Assembly: GCA_027604705.1 (NCBI GenBank) | Contig: JADHYV010000003.1 | Coordinates: 434,001 to 498,000, forward strand | Source: Allomyces arbusculus | Taxonomy: Eukaryota; Blastocladiomycota; Blastocladiomycetes; Blastocladiales; Blastocladiaceae | Reading direction: 5' to 3' | Length of the DNA stretch: 64,000 nucleotides | Position numbers and translations under genes: made by a program | The notes under the pieces: generated by a model | The model's input: the letters and a program-made list of their open reading frames with translations, nothing else | What the model was told of the DNA's origin: nothing | Databases searched by the model: none | Part shown: positions 25,546-42,100 of the stretch, in pieces | Numbering within the stretch: position 1 is the first letter of the stretch | Layout: every line of letters starts with the position of its first letter

Positions 25546-26122
25546 TCCACGGCTTCGAGTTGGGCCGAGGGTTTGATATTGTGGTTCGGGGCTGGCCGCG
25601 CTTGTTATTGCCCGGACTTCGCTGGATGGACGTCTGCATCGGACTCGGCTGATGTAGCCGAGTGGGGTTTTTGTTCGCCCAATCCGTTTTTGCATTACCC
25701 AATTTGTTCAATACGTTAATCAGCGATTGCTCAGCGCCATCATCAAAGTGAACAGAGAGTGGTGTGCCGCAAAAGGGCAACACGTCTCGTGAGGACAGGA
25801 ACTGCGCCACGATAGATAACATCAGTGTTGAGATCACAATCAACGATGTCCAGTTTTCAGCAGCGACGCGCCGAGTGACGATCATCGAAAGTCGACGTCG
25901 ACGTCGACAACAAATTGCTGCCAGATTGCCAGCGTCGAGAGTGCCTACTAGCTGCAACCCTTTGCCCGTCAACGAAACAGCTTGACGCCGTCGCCATCTT
26001 CTCCACCGTCGTGGACCTGCCGATTGTGCCTGCTTGCTGCTGCAACGACAACGCTCGTGAGGAACCAAGTCGCGAGAACAAGCGTTTGCAATTCAACGAC
26101 CCGACTTTTCTCACGCGACAAC
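25546..26122. other. Spacer / promoter of the TTD14-like gene
   Basis: The TTD14-like frame is open upstream of its ATG to about 25982, but without another ATG. Otherwise nothing was recognised. Confidence 0.45.
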
Positions 26123-27746
26123 ATGGGCTCGTCAATCAAGAGCCTGTCGCTCATGGAGGAGCCGTCGGGTGTCTTTGTCGTGGCGCTGACGGGCGGTCCA
26201 TCGGGCGGCAAGTCGACGGTGCAGACGATGCTCTCGGATGTGCTCGAAAACGCCGGGTACAAGGTCTACCGCGTGCCGGAGACGGCCACGATCTTGCTCG
26301 GCGGCGGCGTCACGTTTGCCGATCTCGACCCGGACCAGCAGGAAAACTTCCAAGAAAATTTGCTGCGCGTCATGATGCGACTCGAGCAGACGTTTATCGA
26401 CTTGGCGCACTTGAACTACAAGAAGCAGGGGAAGAAGACTGTCGTGCTGTGCGACCGTGGGACTATGGTGCGTGGAGGTGGCGGTTTGTCGTGCCTGCGC
26501 GATGGCGTGGGTCGGTTTGATCCCACATGGCTGACGATAATGGCGATCATCACAGGATCCGTCAGCCTGTACGTTCCTGAGCGGCGAGCGTTGCATTCCG
26601 ATGCGCTGCTCGAATGCGTCCATCCCTGGCTGATTTGCGATTCATGTTGGGTTGTGTTTGCTCCGTTGCTGCAGACATTGACCGCGACGGTTGGCTCAAG
26701 ATTCTCAACAAGCTCGACTTGCAGGAGGTCGATATCCGCGACAACCGCTACGATGTGGTGTACGGCCACCGTCTCAATCAATTTTGCGTTGAATCAGCAC
26801 GTTCTCATCTTTGCGCTTCCTTCTGTAGCGTTCATCTCGTCACGGCCGCCGACGGCGCCGAGGAATTCTACACGCTCGAAAACAACGCGACGCGATCCGA
26901 GGGCCTGGAACTCGCACGACATCTCGACAGCCTGGTCAAGCACGCATGGATTGGCCACCCACACTTTGTCGTGGTCGACAATGTCGCAACCGATTTTGAA
27001 AAGAAGTGCCATCGCGTCGTTGAAGCAGGTGCGGCATAGCGATTCACTCCCTCCTGTCCGAATTCGCGAACGCTGACTGACACTGCTCCACCCAGTGCTC
27101 ACGCGCATGGGCCTGCCGGACAAGCGCTGGGGCAAGGACATCAAGAAGCACAAGTTCCTCGTGCGCAACTTTGACGCCGAGGCCGCATTCCCGGTTCTGT
27201 TCCGGGACTTGTACGTTTCCCCACTCGCTCCTTCTCCTCGAACTTCCCAATCTCACCCCTCCCGCGGCTGTTCCTAGCAACGTCGAGCACCGGTACCTCG
27301 TCAACCTCAACGACGACGGCGTGCAAGTGCGCATGCGCAAGCGGTTCGATGAGTCGGGCACTTGCAACTACACGCTCACGACGCGGCAGGCGCCGCTAGC
27401 AGGACAGCGCGTCGAGGAGCGCCGCGCCCTGATTGCCCGTGAGTACGAGGCGCTCAAACACCAGACGGACCCGTCGCGGCACCCGATTGAGAAAGTGCGC
27501 CGGTGTTTCTTGTGGGAGAACCACTATTACCAGCTCGACATGTTCCTGTCGCCGTGCCCGGGCCTCGTGCTCATGGAGGCGTACCTGGCCGTGCCGAAGC
27601 GTGAAGCGGGCGTGGACGAGCTGGTGGATGGGGTTGCGGCGGTGTCGGTCAAGGACATGTTGCCGCCGTTTATTGAGATTGAGCGCGAGGTCACGGACGA
27701 GGCCGAGTTTTCGATGTTCAACTTGTCCAAGAAGGTGGATTCGTAA
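26123..27746 (+). CDS. TTD14-like P-loop NTPase with CYTH-like domain
   Basis: Exons are 26123-26467, 26556-26568, 26675-26759, 26829-27028, 27096-27210 and 27278-27746 (408 aa). The Walker A loop is GGPSGGKST near residues 24-32. CDRGTM, NRYDVV and VTAADGAEEFYTLENN match the AAA_28-type NTPase of Drosophila TTD14 (TRPL translocation defect 14), a GTP- and phosphoinositide-binding trafficking factor. The C-terminal part (VEHRYLV, RMRKRF, FLWENHYYQLDMFL) matches the CYTH-like half. Exon 2 is only 13 nt. It supplies DPSAY and restores the conserved DRGTMDPSAYIDRDGW segment; skipping it breaks the frame. The role in this organism is unknown. Confidence 0.8.
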
Positions 27747-28902: not shown

Positions 28903-31900
28903 TCACAGCTCCGCTGAGGGCGGAACAGTCTCCGACTTCTCCTCCTGCGGCTCCGGCTGCACGCGAGCGCGCGCGCTGGCCGCGCTACGCCTGCGCCACG
29001 CGAAGATCCCGAACCCAGCACCCACGAGCGCAAGGGCCCCGACAGCAGAGCCCCCAGCAATCGCGCCGGTCTGGTCGGGGGTGGGGGTGCCCGGCGGGTT
29101 CCCAGGCGCGCCGCCGCCAGGGGCACCGCCGCCAGGGGCGCCGCTGCCGGGCGAGTTGCTCGGCGTGCTGCTGGGCGGGGTGCTGGGGATCCAAGCAGCC
29201 CCGGGCTGCGCCTGGACGGAAAATTCCGAGTAAATCGGGCACTTGCAAGTTACTTGTGGGGTGGGCGCTGCATCAAGGGTCGTCGTGCATCCAGCGTTGG
29301 TCCAGGCCGTCCCCGACCAGTAGACGCACACGGGGCCATGGTTGGCGGGCATGCCGCCCGACGGGATTACTGTCGAGTACGTGATGTTGAACAACGTGGC
29401 GTCTTCCGGAACGTTGAGGCCGCACTGGAATGCATGCACCGACAGGACATGCGCGACCATGTTGGCCGCGGGCGCGCCAGACCCGTGCATCGTTGGCCAA
29501 TCGACCGTCACCAAGTCGAGGCATCCGGGACCAAACAATTGGACGATATTAAATGCAAAGGTGTTCACATTCCGCGGCGCGTCGCCCGATTCGGAGCTAG
29601 TGGCGCGGATCCGGCGACCCGATGCCGAGAATGAGGGCGTGGTGAAGTACGTCGGCACCGATGGGACAAGCGTCGACTCGCCCGCAAGCGACGCGAGAAC
29701 CAGTGCCCGAACCTGGCCAAAGATGCGCTGCTGCGTCGCTGTCGCGTTGATCGCCCCGGTCTGCCGCCGCCGCAGCAACCCGATGCTGCTCGACGCCAGC
29801 TGGGCTTGCAGAGCATTGTCGAGCGCGCGTGCAACCAACTGCGCATTTCGCACGTCCAGCGATTTGGGCACACCAGCAACGGTCACGCGCAGCCCAACGA
29901 GCGCTGTGTCGATGAGGGCCAAATACGCGTCATGGTCGCTTGCGCTGGCGCTGCGCAAGTCAATGGTGTTGATCACGCTTAGCGCGCGCAAGGCCGTCTC
30001 GGGCTGTGGGGTCAGGATGCTCATGGCGGCCGCAGTCGCGTTGAGCACCGATGCTGTCAGCGCGGCCACTTGCGTGCGGTCGGCGACCGACAGTGAGGAA
30101 GGCAGGTCGGCGGTCATGGCCGAAATGGCCGAGAGCGTTGCAAGCGCGGCCGTCGGGTTGATGGGAGAATCAGCGCGTGCCGCAGCGAGCATCGTCGTGG
30201 CCGTGTCAAGCACTGCTGTGTTGCTGGTGGCCATGGCGCCGACGCCGCGCACGAGCGTGACGGGTTGCACGGCCGTTGCCGATGCGCCGTTCGCGTCCGT
30301 GACGACCACGTACACGTTCCTGGCGGCCATGGGCAGGGTTATGGCATTGACGGTCGGAATCGTGGTCAGAGCCACATTGTTGGGGACGAGGTCTCCATTC
30401 CCAGGTCCTGCGACCGAGTAGCCAAACGCGTAGGTGAATGGCGACGTGCCATTCGTCCAGCCGCTCGTCGTGATGCAAAACGTGTCGGTGAACGCGACAC
30501 CCGACGCCGGGTTGTTGTTGACCATGTTGGCCGCGTTCGTGTTCACGACCGAAACAATCCCACCCGCGGGCGGCGCAGCGATGGGCACCGTAATCTCGCC
30601 CATGAACGTGATATCGGGCAACGTATCCGGCGACATGGTTCCCGTGACGCGGAACGTGAACTGCTGGCAAGCCTGGAGCACGTCGCGCCCAATTACGAGA
30701 GACGCAAATTCCTTTGTGACAGTCGCGCGCAAGTCGACTCCCTGCGCGAGACTGGGCGAAATCGACCACTCGACGGATTTGAGCCGAAACGGGGACCAAT
30801 AATCCGGGTGCCTGAATTCGGCAAGAACCGACACGCCTTGCGCGGGGTTGGCGGCGCTCAATGGCGGCTGCCACGACATGTCAAGGTACGGCGTGGGGTC
30901 ACTGGTCGTAATGAATCGGCCCTGGGCTTGAGCAAATCGCGGCGGGTTTGTTGAAGAGTCCGTGACCTGCACATACATATCAAACGTCTTGCCGGGCGTC
31001 AGCGAGTTGGCCGGGTACGGAAAACTTTGGCGGGTGCTGGCCTCATGGCACACGTTGTCTTCGCACTCGATCCACCGGTACGTGTAGGTCTTGGTGCCCG
31101 CGAGATTGTCGGCATCCCGGATCACAGCCGCAAACCCATTCGAGCGGCTCGTCGTGAGCATTTGGGTCGACCCGCGCATGATGAACGCAGCGAACGGCAC
31201 AGGAACGACCGAGAACGGCGCCGAAATCGTGTACACGGTACTATGTTGTTGACGGCACCCGTGACCGTGTAATTTCCGTACACGAGCTGTGAGAGCGGTA
31301 ATTTCAGGTTCCGCCCCGTCACGGTCCCGCCCACGGCCGAAATGTCGACAGCGTCTCCATTTGGGTCCGTCACGTTCCACGTCGAATTGAACGGCACGGC
31401 CGACGCATTGAGGCCCGAGCACGCTGCAAACGTGACGGCCATATACTGCGTGAGCGTGTCGGCCATGCGCCCTCGGAAGATCGAGTTTGAAAGCGCCAGC
31501 TGCGGGATCGTCGATGACGCCGACCGCGCCACGGTCACCAGCTGACGCGGTGAGTAGACGGTGCCGTTGGGCGCCGACGAGATTGCCACGCTCACGCCCA
31601 CCGTCAGTGGGTTACCGACCGTGACGGCCGATGCGGGCAGCGCCACGGAGCCCTGCGTGCCGTTGGCAGTAGCCAGTGCCGCCGTGACCGCGGCTGTTGT
31701 GCCGCTCCCTTGGTCAACGTAGTAGTAATAGCTCAGTGTCGAGCCGTCCGATGCAGCCGACTTGGAGAGATCAATCGTGATGCTGCTGTTGTCGCACGCC
31801 GCGAGGAGCGTGGGCGCCAGCACGACGAGTGTGGCTGTCGGGGCAGCCCGTGTAGGGGTCGGCACAATCAGCTCACTCGGGTTAACCGACGCACCCACCG

Positions 31901-34375
31901 ACCTGCGTCGGACATGGGCAAACGAGCTCGGCGCTGTGGTCGCGGCCGAGGTCGACGACAAATCGGCCGTTTCCGTGGTTTTGTGCGACTCCTGCGCCTG
32001 ACGACTCGCCAAGTGAGCGTCCTGCAGCGCGCGGCGCGACAAAGTGGTCATTTCCTGGTCGGACCGGCCAGCCATTCGGTCTTCGCGGGCGATAAACGCG
32101 TGCTCAGCATCAATGATGGCCACCGCCTCGGGCACGGCCTCGACGCGGGCACCGTGCATCTGCATCTTGGCGAGAAGCGCGCGGATATCCGACGAGAACC
32201 CGCCAGCGGCCGAGAGCATGGTCTTGCGAGCCATGAAGACGCCGCTCCACGCGGCACGGGACCGCCTTGTCGGGCTGGCCACACCAGGTGGGAGCGGAAG
32301 CGTGCGGCGGCGCGACACAGTCGAGTCGACGCCCGCAATCAGCGCGTCCACTTTCGTCGCGGAAGCGGCGCGCGCGAAGACCTCGAGCATTGCCTGCTTG
32401 GCGATCATGTGCGGCAGCATTGGGACCACGTATTCGGACTGGGCGACTTGGATCCCGGCGCGAATCAGCTCGTCGGCCGACTGTGCGATAGTCGGCGTTG
32501 CCGGTGCGTCTGCCATGATCAGTTTCCACCCGCGGCGCGTCCACTCTGCGCTGGCGAGGCCCTGCAGAACTTCGGCCGTGGCGGCATCTTCCGCGCCCGG
32601 GTCTGAAGTAACGACGACCTCGAGCGCCGGGTAATCCTGTTCCTCGAGCACCGCGACGGCTCGGCGCAGCCGTTCGATCGGGGTGCCGCGCGGGTGAGCG
32701 ACCACGACTGCGACCGACGGGTTCACGTGGTCGTGCAGCCTGCCATCACACGACACGGGCGCACCCTTGGCCAATCGGAGCACCGTCTCCACCCACATGT
32801 GCTGTGCGGCCTCGAGTTCTGCGACGGATTCGCCGGCAATACCAGCGTCAATAGCATGCGCCAGCTGGTCGGCCAGAGCCTCCACGGCATTCTCCCCCAT
32901 CACACCACGGATCACCGGTGTGCCAGACATGGCTAGTTCTTGCGCAATTTGGGCATGCCGCGTCACATCTGGAACCACAGCGACGCGTGTGTGCGCAGCG
33001 TCCGTCAGGTATGTGACGGCGTGGCTCGGTGTGAGCGGGGCGTCGCGCACCTCGACCGCGTACTTGGGCCAGCGTTCCGCGCTGGCACTTACTTGCGCGG
33101 CGGCCCCGGCAACAGGGCCGAAGATCGTAATTTGCAGCGACGGAGGAGAAATGCGGAGTCGGTCGATCGCGTCGAGGAACATGGCGAGCCCCTTGCCGCC
33201 GTCGCCGACGTAGACGAGCTCGCGTGCCGGGCGTGGGGGCCGGATAACAGCAAGAGGGGGCGTGCGAGACTTTTGCGCGCCCGACGTGAGCAGCGGCGCG
33301 ACTTCAGCGTCCTTGTGGTTTCCGGTCGCGGCGGCGGCGTTGCGCAGCTCCTCGCTCGCAAACACAACGTGGTCCGCGAGTGAAATCGTTCGGTCGCGCA
33401 AGTCATTCTCCACATCCGTCCCGGTCCCCGGGTGTGTGACGCCCACGACGAGGCGCGACGGGATGCACCGCGTGCCGAGCGCCGCGGCCGCGACCGTGTG
33501 GAAGGCGTCGTGCGAGTTGGCGTCAAAGTAGATGACGTCAAATGGGTGGTTGCGCGTCATGAGGTCGTGGTAGACGGCGACCGACGCGGCGGCAGTGCTC
33601 CCCGGCAGGCCGGGCACACGCTCGACCGTGATCCTGTTGTCGCCGTCGTCGTCGCCGAGCGCAAGCCGCGTCGTCGTGTAGACGGTCACGTCGATCCCAG
33701 CACGCGCGAGAGCCTGTGCGAGATACACATTGCTGTCACGCTCGGCCGAGCCAGAGACAGAGGCGACGGTGTCGACAAAGAGCGCGGCGGACAGGCGACG
33801 GGACGGGAGGTCTGTGCGGTTCATGAGAATAGATTCTGGGGCGCCATTTCAATGAATCAGAGCAGCGTGTACCGTTGAGCACGGCGACCGGCTGGCCGAC
33901 AGGCACCCGCAACGCGCAATCTGTGCCCGCGAACCCGGCATCACAGAAACACGCGCCATTGGCCGCGACCAACCCGTTACCCGAGCACTCGCGTAGGTTG
34001 AAGCCAAGGACGGCGCCTTCGTCGGCGAGGTGGCCGGCCTGGTTGGTTCGGGGGCCGATCGTAATGGTCAGCCTCTATTCACTCGTCGCTCCAACTTCGT
34101 TTGCCCGATTGGACGTACCAAACGATCCAACGGCGTTCGGAACACGAACAGGGACAGCGCAACCAAGAGCGGGATCGTGAAGAGCAGCACGAGCTTGTCG
34201 AGCTTAATCGCCTGTTTATCAACGTTTGAGCAGTGCGGCCCTGTATTTCTCGAGGCCGCGGCAGCGGCAAAAGCATTCGGACCTCATGTAGAGCCTTGGT
34301 CGGATGGCGATGCAAGCTGGCGACCGTGGGCAGCACGTTGCCCTCCACCTCGGTTGCGGCTTTCTCTGGAATCAT
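28903..34375 (-). CDS. Giant membrane protein: TM anchor, EGF-like, two glycosyltransferase-like folds, REJ-like, GPS-like, TM
   Basis: Modelled exons, in transcript order: 34375-34283, 34211-34119, 34074-33873, 33835-31282 and 31240-28903 (1,759 aa). Residues ~38-57 (LVLLFTIPLLVALSLFVF) look like a signal anchor. An EGF-like loop follows (ECSGNGLV...CFCDAGFAGTDC). Residues ~135-460 have a GT4-type double-Rossmann pattern (ERDSNVYLAQALARAG, YVGDGGKGLAMFLDAI, VVPDVTRHAQIAQELAMSG). Residues ~500-710 resemble a GT2 fold (PSVAVVVAHPRG, EEQDYPALEVVVTSD) but lack a clear DxD. From ~800 a Ser/Thr/Asn-rich REJ/PKD-like ectodomain leads to a GPS-like module (CVYWSGTAWTNAGC...CKCPIYSEF, ~1610-1650), a Gly/Pro stalk, a TM at ~1707-1731 and a short cytoplasmic tail. 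Three introns are only 44, 37 and 41 nt. The 41-nt one could instead be a frameshift near 31241. I know no named family with this order. Confidence 0.68.
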
Positions 34376-36156: not shown

Positions 36157-39100
36157 TCACGGCACCAAGGACCCCGTCGTGACGCGCAAAAACACGTCCT
36201 CGAGCGAACACGTGTCGACAGTCCACTCTGTGACCCCGACATCCCCCGCCTCGGCAGCAACCGCGCGCACAAGCGCGGCCAACGACGCTGCGGGCGACGC
36301 GCCCATGAGCGCGGCCCGCGGCATGCCCATCCCGGGGACTGGCGACTGCGGCGGTGCCGCGGCGCGCGGGAAAATAAACTCGAGCTTGACTTTATCGGCA
36401 AAGTAGGGCGTCACGTCCATCATCGTCGTTTCAATCACCTGCGGCGCCGAGAACGGGATCGGTGGCGAAGGCAGCTCGGCCTCGATATCGGCCGACGCGG
36501 CAGATGCCACAGCGGCACGTGCCGACGCGGCCTGCTGCATGCACGCTTGGAAGTACCCCGCGTAGACGACCGCGGGGAGAGACGCGACCCAGTCGCGCAC
36601 GCCGGGCGCCGCGTACCGGCCGCACTGCAGGACGACGCGCCACCCGTTGCCGTACTTGTGCTTCAATTCCGCGGCGGAACCGATGCACCGCACGCGACCA
36701 CGGGCCATGATCGCGATCCGGTGACACAGGTACTGCACTTCCGCCATGTCGTGCGAAACGAGAACAAGCGACACGTGCGACTCGTCGCGCAATTGCGCGA
36801 GAATCCGCCACAAGTTGTGCTGGTGGTGCACGTCGAGCGCCGTCGTCGGCTCGTCGCAGACGAGCGTCGTTGGGTCGCCGAGGAGCGCAATCGCCAGCGA
36901 CACGCGCCGCTTCATCCCGCCCGACAGTGTCCCGGCGCGCTGGTGCCGGAAGGCAACGAGGCCGACCAGACTCGCGACGTGCCGCGCGGCGCGCTGACTC
37001 GCAAAGACCGAGTACCCCTTCAAGTGCGCGTAGAACCGCAGATTCTCCTCAACCGACAGCTCGTCGAGTAGGTAATTGTCCTGCGGGCACAGCCCCAAAC
37101 GGCCCGTCGTCGTGACCGTACCCTCTGTCGGCCGCACTTGGCCCGTGATCATATTCACCGTATGCGTCTTGCCGCACCCGTTATGCCCAAGCAGCCCAAA
37201 ACACTCGCGCGCGTCGATTCCCAAACTCAAGTCCTCGACAATCGCGTGTGTCTGACCGCGGTACCGCTTGGTCACGCCCTGGAGACGCACGACGCACGGT
37301 GCGTCGGCGCGCGCCACGCGCTCGGCCTCGCGCGCGATCTGCGAATCCACCGTCAAGATACTCGTGAGCGACTCGCCGCGCATGTGCGCAATCGATGGCC
37401 GCGGGCCACCGGCCGCAGTGCGCGGCAACGACCCGGTATGGCCCGACAGCGACCGCACGTGGCCGTGCGCCTTAGATGTCGACCCATACCGCGTCTTCGG
37501 GTCTATTGTCGCCTCGGACGCGAGCGACTCGGGCGACGTCGGCGAGTCCGGCATATCGCTGGTCTTCATGATCGTCGGCGGTGTTTGCGGCAGCGGCGGC
37601 ACGAAAGTCGATTCCTTGGAGTCGGCACGCATCGCCTTCTTGGACTTGGGCTGCCGCGTGAGCGATCCGCCCTGGAACCGCGGCCCACGGGCGCAAATGG
37701 CGGAGCGCACTTGGTTCCAATTCACGAGCGAGAGCAGGGAGAGCGCGACACAGGCGAGATAGCACGCGAGTCCCATGGCCGCGAGCCAGATGAACGCCGG
37801 GATCAGGAGCTGGTGGTCGAAATCCTGCAGGACGATACGCAGTGCAAATGCGATGGCGACGCCCGGGAAGGCCAGCTTGGCGCGGGTCACGGTGATGGGC
37901 AGCGAAATCACGTCCGAGTAGACGACGAGCACACACGGCAGCGCCACGACAAGCGGCACGAGGTACGACAAAAACGAGGCCATCGTGCGTGACCCACCCA
38001 TGAGCGGGACCGCAATTGCCGCGTAGAGGAACGCCATACCAATGATCGCGTGCGTGCCGAGGAACAGCGTCAGCGCGAGCTCGGCGGCGCGAATGTGCGG
38101 GTAAATGGCGACGAGCGTGCCGCCGAGCACGACGAGGAACGGCAGAGCGTAGACGAGGCAGTAGAGGTAATGAGATGCCCAGTAGGCGAGCAGCGAAAGG
38201 CCATTGACGCGGTAATACGCCAAAAACTTACCGTGCTCAGCCATTGGGATCAGGATAAAAATCGTGAAAAATAGCCACAGCAGAACGCACACGAGTGCGT
38301 TCATGAGCAGCTCGTCGCGCGCCGAGTACTGCAAGTCGGGCACGCGCACCATCGACCCATAAATCCGCTCGTTCGGTCCGACCGCGTCGCGCACCAGCGT
38401 CGTCATGGCCGACGCGACCATGTGCCGCACGGGCCCATCGAGCAGCCACAGCCCTTCGAGCGTGTACCACCGCACATCGGCGCGCGTCAGCGGCCAACCC
38501 TCTTGGTTCGACAGCGTCTGCTCGGCGAGTTGCCGCTCGGCATCGTTTCTCGACAACTGCTGAATCACGGCCGCGGGCGCGCTCGGCAACTTGGACTCGA
38601 CCACGTTCAGGTTGTTCATGGTCGCCTGTACGCCGAGCTCGTGGCACCCGGACGACGCGTTGGTCCCGACCGGGTACAAGTATGACATCATCGGGTACGC
38701 CGCCGTCGTCCAGTACCGCAAATCGAGCGCGACCTTCCTCGTGTCGCCATTCGTCTCGTCGGCCTTAATCGCCAGCGCGAAATCCGGCACGCTCGCGGCC
38801 ATTTGCACGTCGGCGTCATTCAAGTCGCGCAACGGCGCCGGGAACCCGCCACGCGCGGCAATTGCAGCCCGACACGTTGCCGGATAATACCTTGCCGCCT
38901 GGTCGAGCGTCTGCGGCGTATCCGCATACAACGCGCGTTGGCGGTCAGCCATGGCCGTCGCCCACGCGTCGGGCGGTGCCGCTTGGAACCGCAAATCGCG
39001 CGGCCGCTGGAGCATGGCGACGGCGACCGCCGACGTCGGGCCCGAATAATCGATAAACTGCGCCATGGCGTTAAAGTCGAGCTGCCGGTTGACGCCCAAC

Positions 39101-42100
39101 AGCGCGACGGCCGACTGGCTCGTGATAATGCTCTGCATCCGCGACGGCGCGTTGACCCACAGCCGCGGTGCGACCGCCGACTGGTACCGCGTCTGCTTGA
39201 TGGCCGCGTAATCAGGGACCGTGCAGAGCGCCGCGGTCGCGGGCGCGCACGCGGTCGAGACTTTGGACACGTACGATTTCAGCACGCCGACATTGCACGA
39301 CCGGTTGCCCGTGAAGGGGTCGGCGACCTGGTAGAATCCCGTGGGCCCACCGTCCATGTCCGAGTGACACAGGTTGCGCGCCGAGAGCGAGACGAGCAGC
39401 GTCAAACCCACGACGACGCCGACAAACAAGACGAGAAACATGAGATTGTGCTTGACCTGCTTGAGCTGCAGCTGCAGATTCTTGCGCAGCATTCCGAACA
39501 ACTGGTTGAAGAGCGTGACGATGTGCCACTGGCGATCGAGAAATGACCCGTTCATGCGGCTTGCTCCTGGTCCGACGGCGCGTTCCGGATCGGCCAAGTT
39601 CGTGGTCGATGCGTTCATCGACTCGAGAGGCGAGACTGCCATAGCCGCCTCGGTCCCCGGCTGTGGCGGCAAAATCGATTCCATCGAGGAGTGCAGCTCC
39701 CAGTCCAAGATTGGCGGCGTTTCGAGATACGGCGCAATAGCCACAAACGCGTTGCGCGTCATGCGCAGCAGCGCCGTTGTCGCCGACATGACGCGCCACT
39801 CGACGATTGCGTCCGGGTTCGGGAACGCATGCAGGACGCGGCGCGGGTCGGCGACGGTCACCAACACCTCGAGCATGTTCTGCTCCTGGTGCAGCTCCAT
39901 CAAATTGCGATGCAGGACGACGCGCCCACCGGGGGCCGCGAGCACAACCACATCGTCGGCGAGCGCATGCACTTCCTGCGTCGAGTGCGACGTGAGCAGC
40001 ACGGCCGCGCCGCGCGACTTGAGCGACGAGACGAATTCCCAGACGTGCCGGCGGTGAATCGGATCCAGCCCGTTGCTGATCTCGTCCATGACGACCAGGT
40101 CCGGGTTGCCCACGCAGGCTCCGAGAATCGAGAGCCGTCGACGCATCCCGCCCGAGTACTCGCCCACGGCTTGGTCGGCCGTGGCCAAAAGCGAGACAGC
40201 CGCGAGCATCGACTCGACGTAGCTGCCGAGCTCGGCATTTGGCACGCCGCGGAACCGCGCCCACAGCCGCACGTGCTGCCGCGCCGTCAGCGACGCGTAG
40301 ACAATGTCGCTTTGCGGACACACGCCCATGGTCGCACGCGCCTGCCGTGAACCGAGCGGCGCGCCAAAGACGTGGCCCGTGCCGGCCGTGGGCTTGGCCG
40401 AGCCCATGAGCACGTCGAGGAGCGTGGACTAGAATTCGAAGATGTCGTCGAAAATGAGTTTTTGACCAATAAACGCGTGAACCAGCAACCGAAAAAAACC
40501 GTACCTTGCCCGACCCATTGTGACCAAGCAATGCCGTCACCACCCCTCGCTGAATTCTCAGCGACACGCCGTCAAGCACGAGCACCGTCTCGTTCCCGCA
40601 ACATGGCCCACACCCTCTCCTCCTCTGCTGCCGCTGTCGGCTCCGCACACTCCCCTCGTGCCCCGGCTGCGTCGCCCGCGTCTGCGACTGCGCCATCCTC
40701 GGCCGCTTGAACGCCTGCGAGATATGGTCGAGCTCGACGACATCGGCCACGTCGGCCCCATATTTTCTCGGCCCGTAAAACCCCCAGTACGTCGGCATCA
40801 GCGGGAAGTACCACGGCTGGCGCCAATGGTGCGACTTGCCCGTGAGTTGGTTCAGATACCAGCAGAGCACGAAAAACGCGCCAATACTCGCCGCTTGCCA
40901 AATGGCCATGCTCGTTGGGATCCGCGACGGGTCGGATTGCGCGGCGGCGAGCGTCAGGGCGTAGGGGTACGTGACGCCCGAGGTCGACGAGCTTGATGGC
41001 GCGGCCGCGGTTGCAGCGTCGGTCGGGACCCCCGCGAGGTTGCCGTGGCCCGTGGATGCTGCGACGCCGTGCCACGTGTAATCAATGGCGCCGCCAAGTG
41101 CGCGGCCGAGCTGGAAGAAAGGCAGGATGCCAAACACCCAGTAGAGCGCACCCTCGGCCGAGGTCCCGAGCGACGGCTGGTTGAACCGCAGCCACCAGGG
41201 CGTGATCGTGCTCGCCCAGTACAGCTGGTTGAGGTCGGTCAAGTTGAGCACAAACAGGAACAGCGCTGTGACGACCATGAGCATGACCGTGAGTACCGAC
41301 GTCGCGTACGGGCTCGTCGAGAGCGCGACGGCAACGACCGTGCCGAGCGCGCACAGGCTCATGATGAACAGGAACAGGATGCTGAACAGGTAGGTCGGCG
41401 CAATCTGGTTGAGCGCAGCGTAGGTCGCGAGCCGCGCCGGAATCAGCGCGAATCCTGCGGCAATCGCGGCAACGCCGGTCATGACGATATACACGCTCAG
41501 CCAGTAGACAGACTCGTACAGGTTCATTTGCCGCAACTGGTTGAGCACGCCGTCAAACTTGTCCTGGCTGAGCAGCGAGACGATCAGGAGCAATGCCGGG
41601 AAACTGCCCGCGGCCACGAAACACGTCGTGACGATATTGGCCGCGTAGTGCGTGAGCGTCTCCATACTGCGTTGCATCTGCAATGCCTGGTCGGAAATCA
41701 CAGTGCCGCCATCGGTCGTTGGTGCCGGCGGGACCAACTTGTCCGCCATCCCAGCAGCGGCGACATCGCCACCGGCTGCGGTCTCGGGCATCATGGTCGC
41801 GTTCAGGCCCCACGCGGGTACTTCACGCGGCACGATGCGCGGGAACGTGGCGAGCGACAAGTCGACAACGTGCCGCTTGCCGGATCGCACGTTCAAGATG
41901 GCGTTCTCGAGCAACAGCTTGACGCTCAGCATTGTACCCTTCGACACGCCGTAATCCCGCGCGAGCGCCGGGTCATAGTACATGCCGAGTGCGTTCGCGT
42001 CGCCTTCGCCGATTGTGTACCAGGTGCCCTGCAACGACGCGAGCCGTGCATCCGCGTCGGCGCGCGAAGCCGGACTATCCTGCCGCCACGTATCTGCGGC

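Follow-up and report, generated by a model that had tools for sequence, protein, structure and literature searches.

Can one gene join a signal anchor, an EGF-like loop, two glycosyltransferase (GT) folds and the REJ and GPS modules in a single membrane protein, and if so, what would such a protein do? The question is raised by a gene in a stretch of 64,000 nucleotides from the blastocladiomycete Allomyces arbusculus (contig JADHYV010000003.1, positions 434,001 to 498,000 of the forward strand), hereafter the window. The gene lies on the minus strand, as do all of its features given below, and runs from a start ATG at 34375 to a stop at 28903, in agreement with an earlier sequence-only reading of the same DNA. 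That reading had proposed the order signal anchor, EGF-like loop, GT4-like region, GT2-like region, REJ, GPS-like motif and C-terminal transmembrane (TM) segment, and this order was seen again by Pfam matches, hydropathy and profile alignment. Its further proposal, one membrane-bound protein formed by fusion, finds good support in two paralogs, each of which has one long open frame. We give about an even chance to the view, drawn from sequence comparison, that these genes encode a receptor family whose two pseudo-glycosyltransferases would bind but not modify a glycan and would sit on top of an uncleaved REJ-GAIN stalk.

Two paralogs carry the same linked domains

The genome (25.9 Mb in 197 contigs) was searched with domain profiles; because these searches scored the best candidates only, further weak family members are possible. 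Two paralogs of the window gene were found, on contigs G000:C47 and G000:C10, and each encodes GT4, GT2, REJ, GPS and TM parts in the same order within a single open frame (1682 and 2018 amino acids, respectively). Their 5′ exons and three introns correspond to those of the window gene in both position and phase. The REJ search of the genome gave three matches, all of them members of this family, while the two GPS matches were also both in the family, the window GPS falling just under the threshold. The sequence-only reading had named the lack of any other gene with the linked domains as the outcome that would count against it, and two such genes are present in the same genome.

The linkage of the domains is neither a chance association nor a misjoin. 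It is highly improbable that two or more separate genes were joined in error: the window copy does lie in two frames (see below), but GT4 through TM occupy one frame in both paralogs, and the 5′ introns match in all three copies. A break that had been suspected at 33.8 kb turned out to be an ordinary intron, also present in all three copies. Pairwise divergence estimated by NG86 over six comparisons gave nonsynonymous distances (dN) of 0.37-0.51 and synonymous distances (dS) of 0.97-1.24, indicating that the proteins are constrained. Only on C10 is the linker between GT2 and REJ long and rich in Ser and Thr; the other two copies, in the window and on C47, have a much shorter one. The C10 linker is made up of tandem Ser/Thr-rich repeats with GSSTTTDSASWL units, which flank a run of N.

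Structure of the window gene

Exon 1 (34283-34375) encodes a 31-residue N-terminal tail, predicted to be cytoplasmic, which could be aligned with exon 1 of both paralogs. Exon 2 (34119-34211) encodes the signal anchor, with a hydrophobic stretch at 34140-34196 whose mean Kyte-Doolittle value is 2.47 (2.66 and 2.37 in the paralogs). The EGF-like loop is carried by exon 3 (33873-34038) and contains four cysteines at 33916-33987 that are conserved in all three copies; the Pfam matches for this exon, EGF_Teneurin (1.6e-4) and EGF_2 (0.0076), each fell under their own cut-off. Exon 4, from 33811 onward, carries the remainder of the protein, from the GT4-like region through the C-terminal TM segment.

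Taking a Kyte-Doolittle mean of 1.6 over 19 residues as the threshold for a TM segment, only the N-terminal anchor and one C-terminal segment exceeded this value in all three copies. The latter lies at 29005-29061 in the window (1.77; paralogs 2.31 and 1.68) and is followed by a basic tail and the stop codon at 28905-28903. The window and C47 copies have a few further, weaker hydrophobic segments, which are not common to the copies.

A frame change interrupts the window copy

The window gene had been described as continuous, and on this point the sequence-only reading was not confirmed. The coding sequence is divided between two frames, termed a (33848-31122) and b (31611-28903), with the junction at 31243-31244, inside the REJ domain. 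When both frames were aligned to the paralogs, two bases stood in the window where each paralog has three, so that the window copy is one base short of both. Because the difference is two bases against three and the window has no extra sequence relative to the paralogs, no intron rejoins the frames, and an intron at 31.2 kb was ruled out. As judged from this alignment, the change at 31243-31244 stems either from a fault in the assembly or from a recent frameshift. In the C47 and C10 copies the frame is intact.

The window copy may also be a recent pseudogene of the family, to which we give somewhat less than an even chance; this would be compatible with the other readings considered here, as they concern the family. 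Besides the frame change itself, it is favoured by the donor of intron 1, which reads GTCCGA in the window and GTACGA and GTACGG in the paralogs, and by the replacement of two cysteines common to both paralogs in the part after the frame change (29000-31240). Window-only substitutions were also in surplus after the break (Fisher p 0.026), although this surplus was not significant when the start of REJ alone served as reference (p 0.44). Against decay, frame b remains open for 779 codons past the break, with 49% and 45% identity to the paralogs, and third-position GC is 0.77-0.78 in both halves of the window copy. The part after the frame change (29000-31240) additionally contains three cysteines without counterpart in the paralogs.

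Two glycosyltransferase-like folds

The GT4-like region (32847-33788) has two Rossmann-like halves, and in the window copy it passed the PF13439 threshold (30.0 bits, cut-off 28.5; E 6.2e-7). The GT2-like region follows at 32112-32714 and matched PF00535 at E 0.0035, below its cut-off. Since the Pfam calls were uneven between copies, the GT assignment is based mainly on profile-profile alignment. In hhalign, a profile of the three GT regions aligned with a 15-sequence GT4 profile at 96.1% (E 3.3e-9) over 299 columns, covering both halves, and with a 5-sequence GT2 profile at 69.3% (E 4.3e-5) over 185 columns. Negative controls remained low throughout: three column shuffles against both GT profiles did not exceed 0.2%; profiles of SDR, GT9, GT8, GT26 and O-antigen ligase did not exceed 0.7%; and the REJ-GAIN half of the family against the two GT profiles did not exceed 0.2%. 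Templates made from single sequences failed to separate GTs (5) from other proteins (11), with every score at or below 1.9%, and therefore only family profiles were counted as evidence. These alignments support a whole GT-B fold as the predicted structure of the GT4-like region and, less strongly, a GT-A fold for the GT2-like region.

In the GT regions, identity to the window copy is 53% and 46% for the two paralogs, and some blocks, AGVDST and RTLPL among them, are fully conserved. This degree of conservation argues against the view that the protein is a structural adhesin or a stalk linked to the wall, with GT folds that act as scaffolds or protein-binding surfaces and bind no glycan. The long Ser/Thr-rich repeat linker of the C10 copy would suit such a protein, and we regard this view as a doubtful alternative.

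Searches of other sequence collections yielded little. Viral contigs searched with the GT profile and two archaeal GTs contained no relative, a collection of genome contigs gave nothing useful, and plasmids gave one weak GT4 with the window GT region (24.5% identity, E 0.9) and no match with the GT2 segment of C47. A single match at E 5 between phages and the C47 GT region, under a capsid gene, was regarded as chance. Within the genome, PF13439 had six matches: the window gene, one each on C15, C7 and C13, and two on C28. We take the open reading frames on C15 and C7 to be glycogen synthase and that on C13 to be ALG2.

Signature catalytic residues are replaced in all copies

The first Glu of the GT4 signature E-x7-E (approximately 32958-32963) corresponds, in the register of the hhalign alignment, to Arg in the window copy and to Ala in the two paralogs; when the position is counted without a gap, the three copies have Thr, Leu and Val. 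Among 15 aligned GT4 controls, this position is Glu in 13 and Asp in 2; these are the original 16 less AArc_16140, which lacks E-x7-E by pattern and whose omission favours the contrast. At the DxD position of GT2, the window reads LPH (32409-32417) and the paralogs PPR and TPA. Overall, the family resembles GT4 and, less clearly, GT2 glycosyltransferases in fold, as seen by profile-profile alignment, and differs from them at signature catalytic positions, which are substituted in each of the three copies. From these replacements we infer that both GT folds have probably lost catalysis. Reuse of GT folds without catalysis is known from the pseudo-glycosyltransferases Cosmc and GtfB, which act as chaperones or partner subunits; they would share the non-catalytic use of a GT fold with the present family, and they are not receptor ectodomains.

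Several results weigh against this reading. Regarding the folds, PF13439 scored 16.4 and 17.0 bits in the paralogs, below the cut-off, and PF00535 matched two of the three copies, neither above its cut-off, with no match in C10; support for GT2 is moderate. A domain scan of the whole C47 frame gave no GT domain at E 0.01, and NCBIfam gave four weak matches, each in one of the three copies (best TuaG, 0.0026, and PgaC/IcaA, 0.0036) and none in the window copy. Sequence searches of solved structures with the GT and GT2 profiles returned no glycosyltransferase. Two AlphaFold2 single-sequence models were poor (mean pLDDT 40.6 and 43.1), and for this reason the folds rest on the profiles. Regarding catalysis, the second Glu of E-x7-E (32937-32939 in the window) and the Asp of an SSDIR stretch, which may be the GT2 catalytic base, are conserved in all three copies. 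Moreover, a plain pattern found E-x7-E in place in 12 of the 16 GT4 controls (not in wcaI, wcaC, AArc_16145 and AArc_16140), and two of the five GT2 controls (wcaE and DL31_0599) also lack a clean DxD in the column. Because these controls deviate too, loss of the signatures alone is no proof of inactivity.

These observations bear on a different reading, in which the protein would be a membrane-bound glycosyltransferase, divergent yet active, in the Golgi or at the cell surface, with the REJ-GAIN part as a spacer. An N-terminal signal anchor is typical of Golgi transferases and is present here, and the retained Glu and Asp residues and the imperfect GT2 controls are likewise what an active enzyme would allow. 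However, the first Glu of E-x7-E and the DxD are replaced in every copy, and in the papers considered here (PMC4700764, PMC1934368 and PMC4810088) REJ and GPS belong to receptors. We consider an active enzyme unlikely. The sequence-only reading had left open whether the protein binds or modifies glycans; binding, a predicted function, is the better half of that claim, and modification is disfavoured, since each of the three copies has substitutions at key catalytic positions in both GT folds. The roles that the same reading had put forward, in zoospore adhesion, gamete contact or wall sensing, are candidate functions.

A REJ-GAIN part that is probably uncleaved

The REJ domain (PF02010) passed its cut-off of 25 bits in all three copies, with 85.2 and 78.7 bits in the paralogs and 48.8 bits in the window for the part after the frame change. 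Its limits in the window, 30265-31385, were transferred from Pfam matches via the paralogs, and the stretch ahead of it (31386-31841) may be part of the same module. The GPS-like Cys/Trp motif lies at 29215-29334, where PF01825 scored 21.7 bits against a cut-off of 22.5; the paralogs passed with 24.7 and 27.8 bits. A family profile aligned to the GPS of ADGRF1 with E values of 0.041-0.089. An AlphaFold2 single-sequence model of the GAIN region showed helices, strands and a TM helix in that order, but its mean pLDDT was 43.1.

The HL(S/T) triad at which cleavage occurs reads HLT in ADGRF1, IYS in the window (29227-29235) and MYS in both paralogs, so that the His-Leu pair is gone from all three copies. 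In polycystin-1, the triad changes L3040H and Thr-to-Val block cleavage (PMC4810088). We infer that GPS cleavage has probably been lost in this family.

Further parts of related receptors were looked for. PLAT/LH2 had no match in the window frames at E values up to 1, nor in the paralog frames at values up to 0.01. The 11 TM segments and cation channel of the REJ/PKD1 family were not found, the copies having two TM segments in common, and no adhesion-type seven-TM region of a G protein-coupled receptor (GPCR) follows the GPS, only one hydrophobic segment and then the stop. As a candidate PKD2-type channel partner, the genome gave one PF08016 match, on G000:C14 (19.3 bits, 24.8 with neighbours), which was set aside since we take this open reading frame to be a voltage-gated cation channel. 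A search of the genome for the gamete marker HAP2 gave no match, but the controls were silent too, making it uninformative.

A candidate recognition receptor

In the receptor reading, the window gene and its two paralogs would all encode cell-surface receptors. The ectodomain would follow a short N-terminal tail and the signal anchor, and would consist of the EGF loop, the GT4-like and GT2-like folds, a linker, REJ and a GAIN/GPS-type module; the second TM segment and a short basic tail would come after it. Both GT folds would be pseudo-enzymes, binding a glycan or a sugar-nucleotide-like ligand that they do not turn over, and the REJ-GAIN part would serve as an uncleaved stalk through which adhesion or force reaches the membrane.

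A close counterpart is sea urchin SpREJ1, a receptor for egg jelly of the PKD1/REJ family, which is not known to have an N-terminal signal anchor. According to PMC1934368, it combines one EGF domain with C-type lectin domains, a REJ domain and one or two TM segments, and it binds a glycan of egg jelly, a fucose sulfate polymer. The fungal family shares with it one EGF domain, sugar-binding modules (predicted here), REJ and one or two TM segments, and differs in having GT folds where SpREJ1 has C-type lectin domains; the pseudo-GT pair might do the job of the lectin modules. Polycystin-1 and PKDREJ also have REJ followed by GAIN/GPS (PMC4810088); they have many TM segments, whereas the fungal family has one at the C-terminus, no PLAT match and no HL(S/T) triad. 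Many TM segments are, however, not universal in the REJ/PKD1 family, given the one or two of SpREJ1 (PMC1934368). Outside animals, REJ and GPS also occur together in Ectocarpus Esi0130_0068, a male-gamete gene; unlike the fungal proteins, it has 6 or 7 predicted TM segments and a channel domain, and a domain scan showed no GT fold (PMC4700764, available text).

A more specific proposal, which we hold only tentatively from this sequence comparison, is that the family represents a convergent sugar-sensing REJ-type receptor of a zoosporic fungus, with a dead GT pair in place of the SpREJ1 lectins, serving gamete, host or wall recognition. Literature searches found no described family with this domain order and no link between REJ/GPS and a GT fold. 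Gamete and mechanosensory receptors of animals and brown algae are known to contain REJ and GPS modules (PMC4700764, PMC1934368 and PMC4810088). A survey of fungal GPCRs lists two Adhesion-family members in Allomyces, and its main text does not contain the term 'REJ' (PMC3251606). If the GT folds are ligand-binding pseudo-enzymes, the family would offer an example, open to test, of enzyme folds that have become a receptor ectodomain. It would mean that GT active-site clefts can become receptor pockets, and would provide a candidate recognition receptor in flagellated fungi.

Neighbouring and other genes

Adjoining the receptor gene, a minus-strand open frame of 1423 amino acids (36157-40428) has two ABC_tran matches and encodes an ABC transporter. 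On the plus strand, an AAA_28 ATPase domain is encoded at 25952-27076, in a gene that is presumably TTD14-like. Elsewhere in the genome, G000:C7 and G000:C15 carry two genes with a bacterial-type rhodopsin domain, whose frames suggest introns. In one of these, the rhodopsin domain is followed by sequence read as a cyclase catalytic domain, and the pair suits a zoosporic fungus; a rhodopsin-guanylyl cyclase gene fusion is reported from a fungus (PMC4046227), presumably Blastocladiella.

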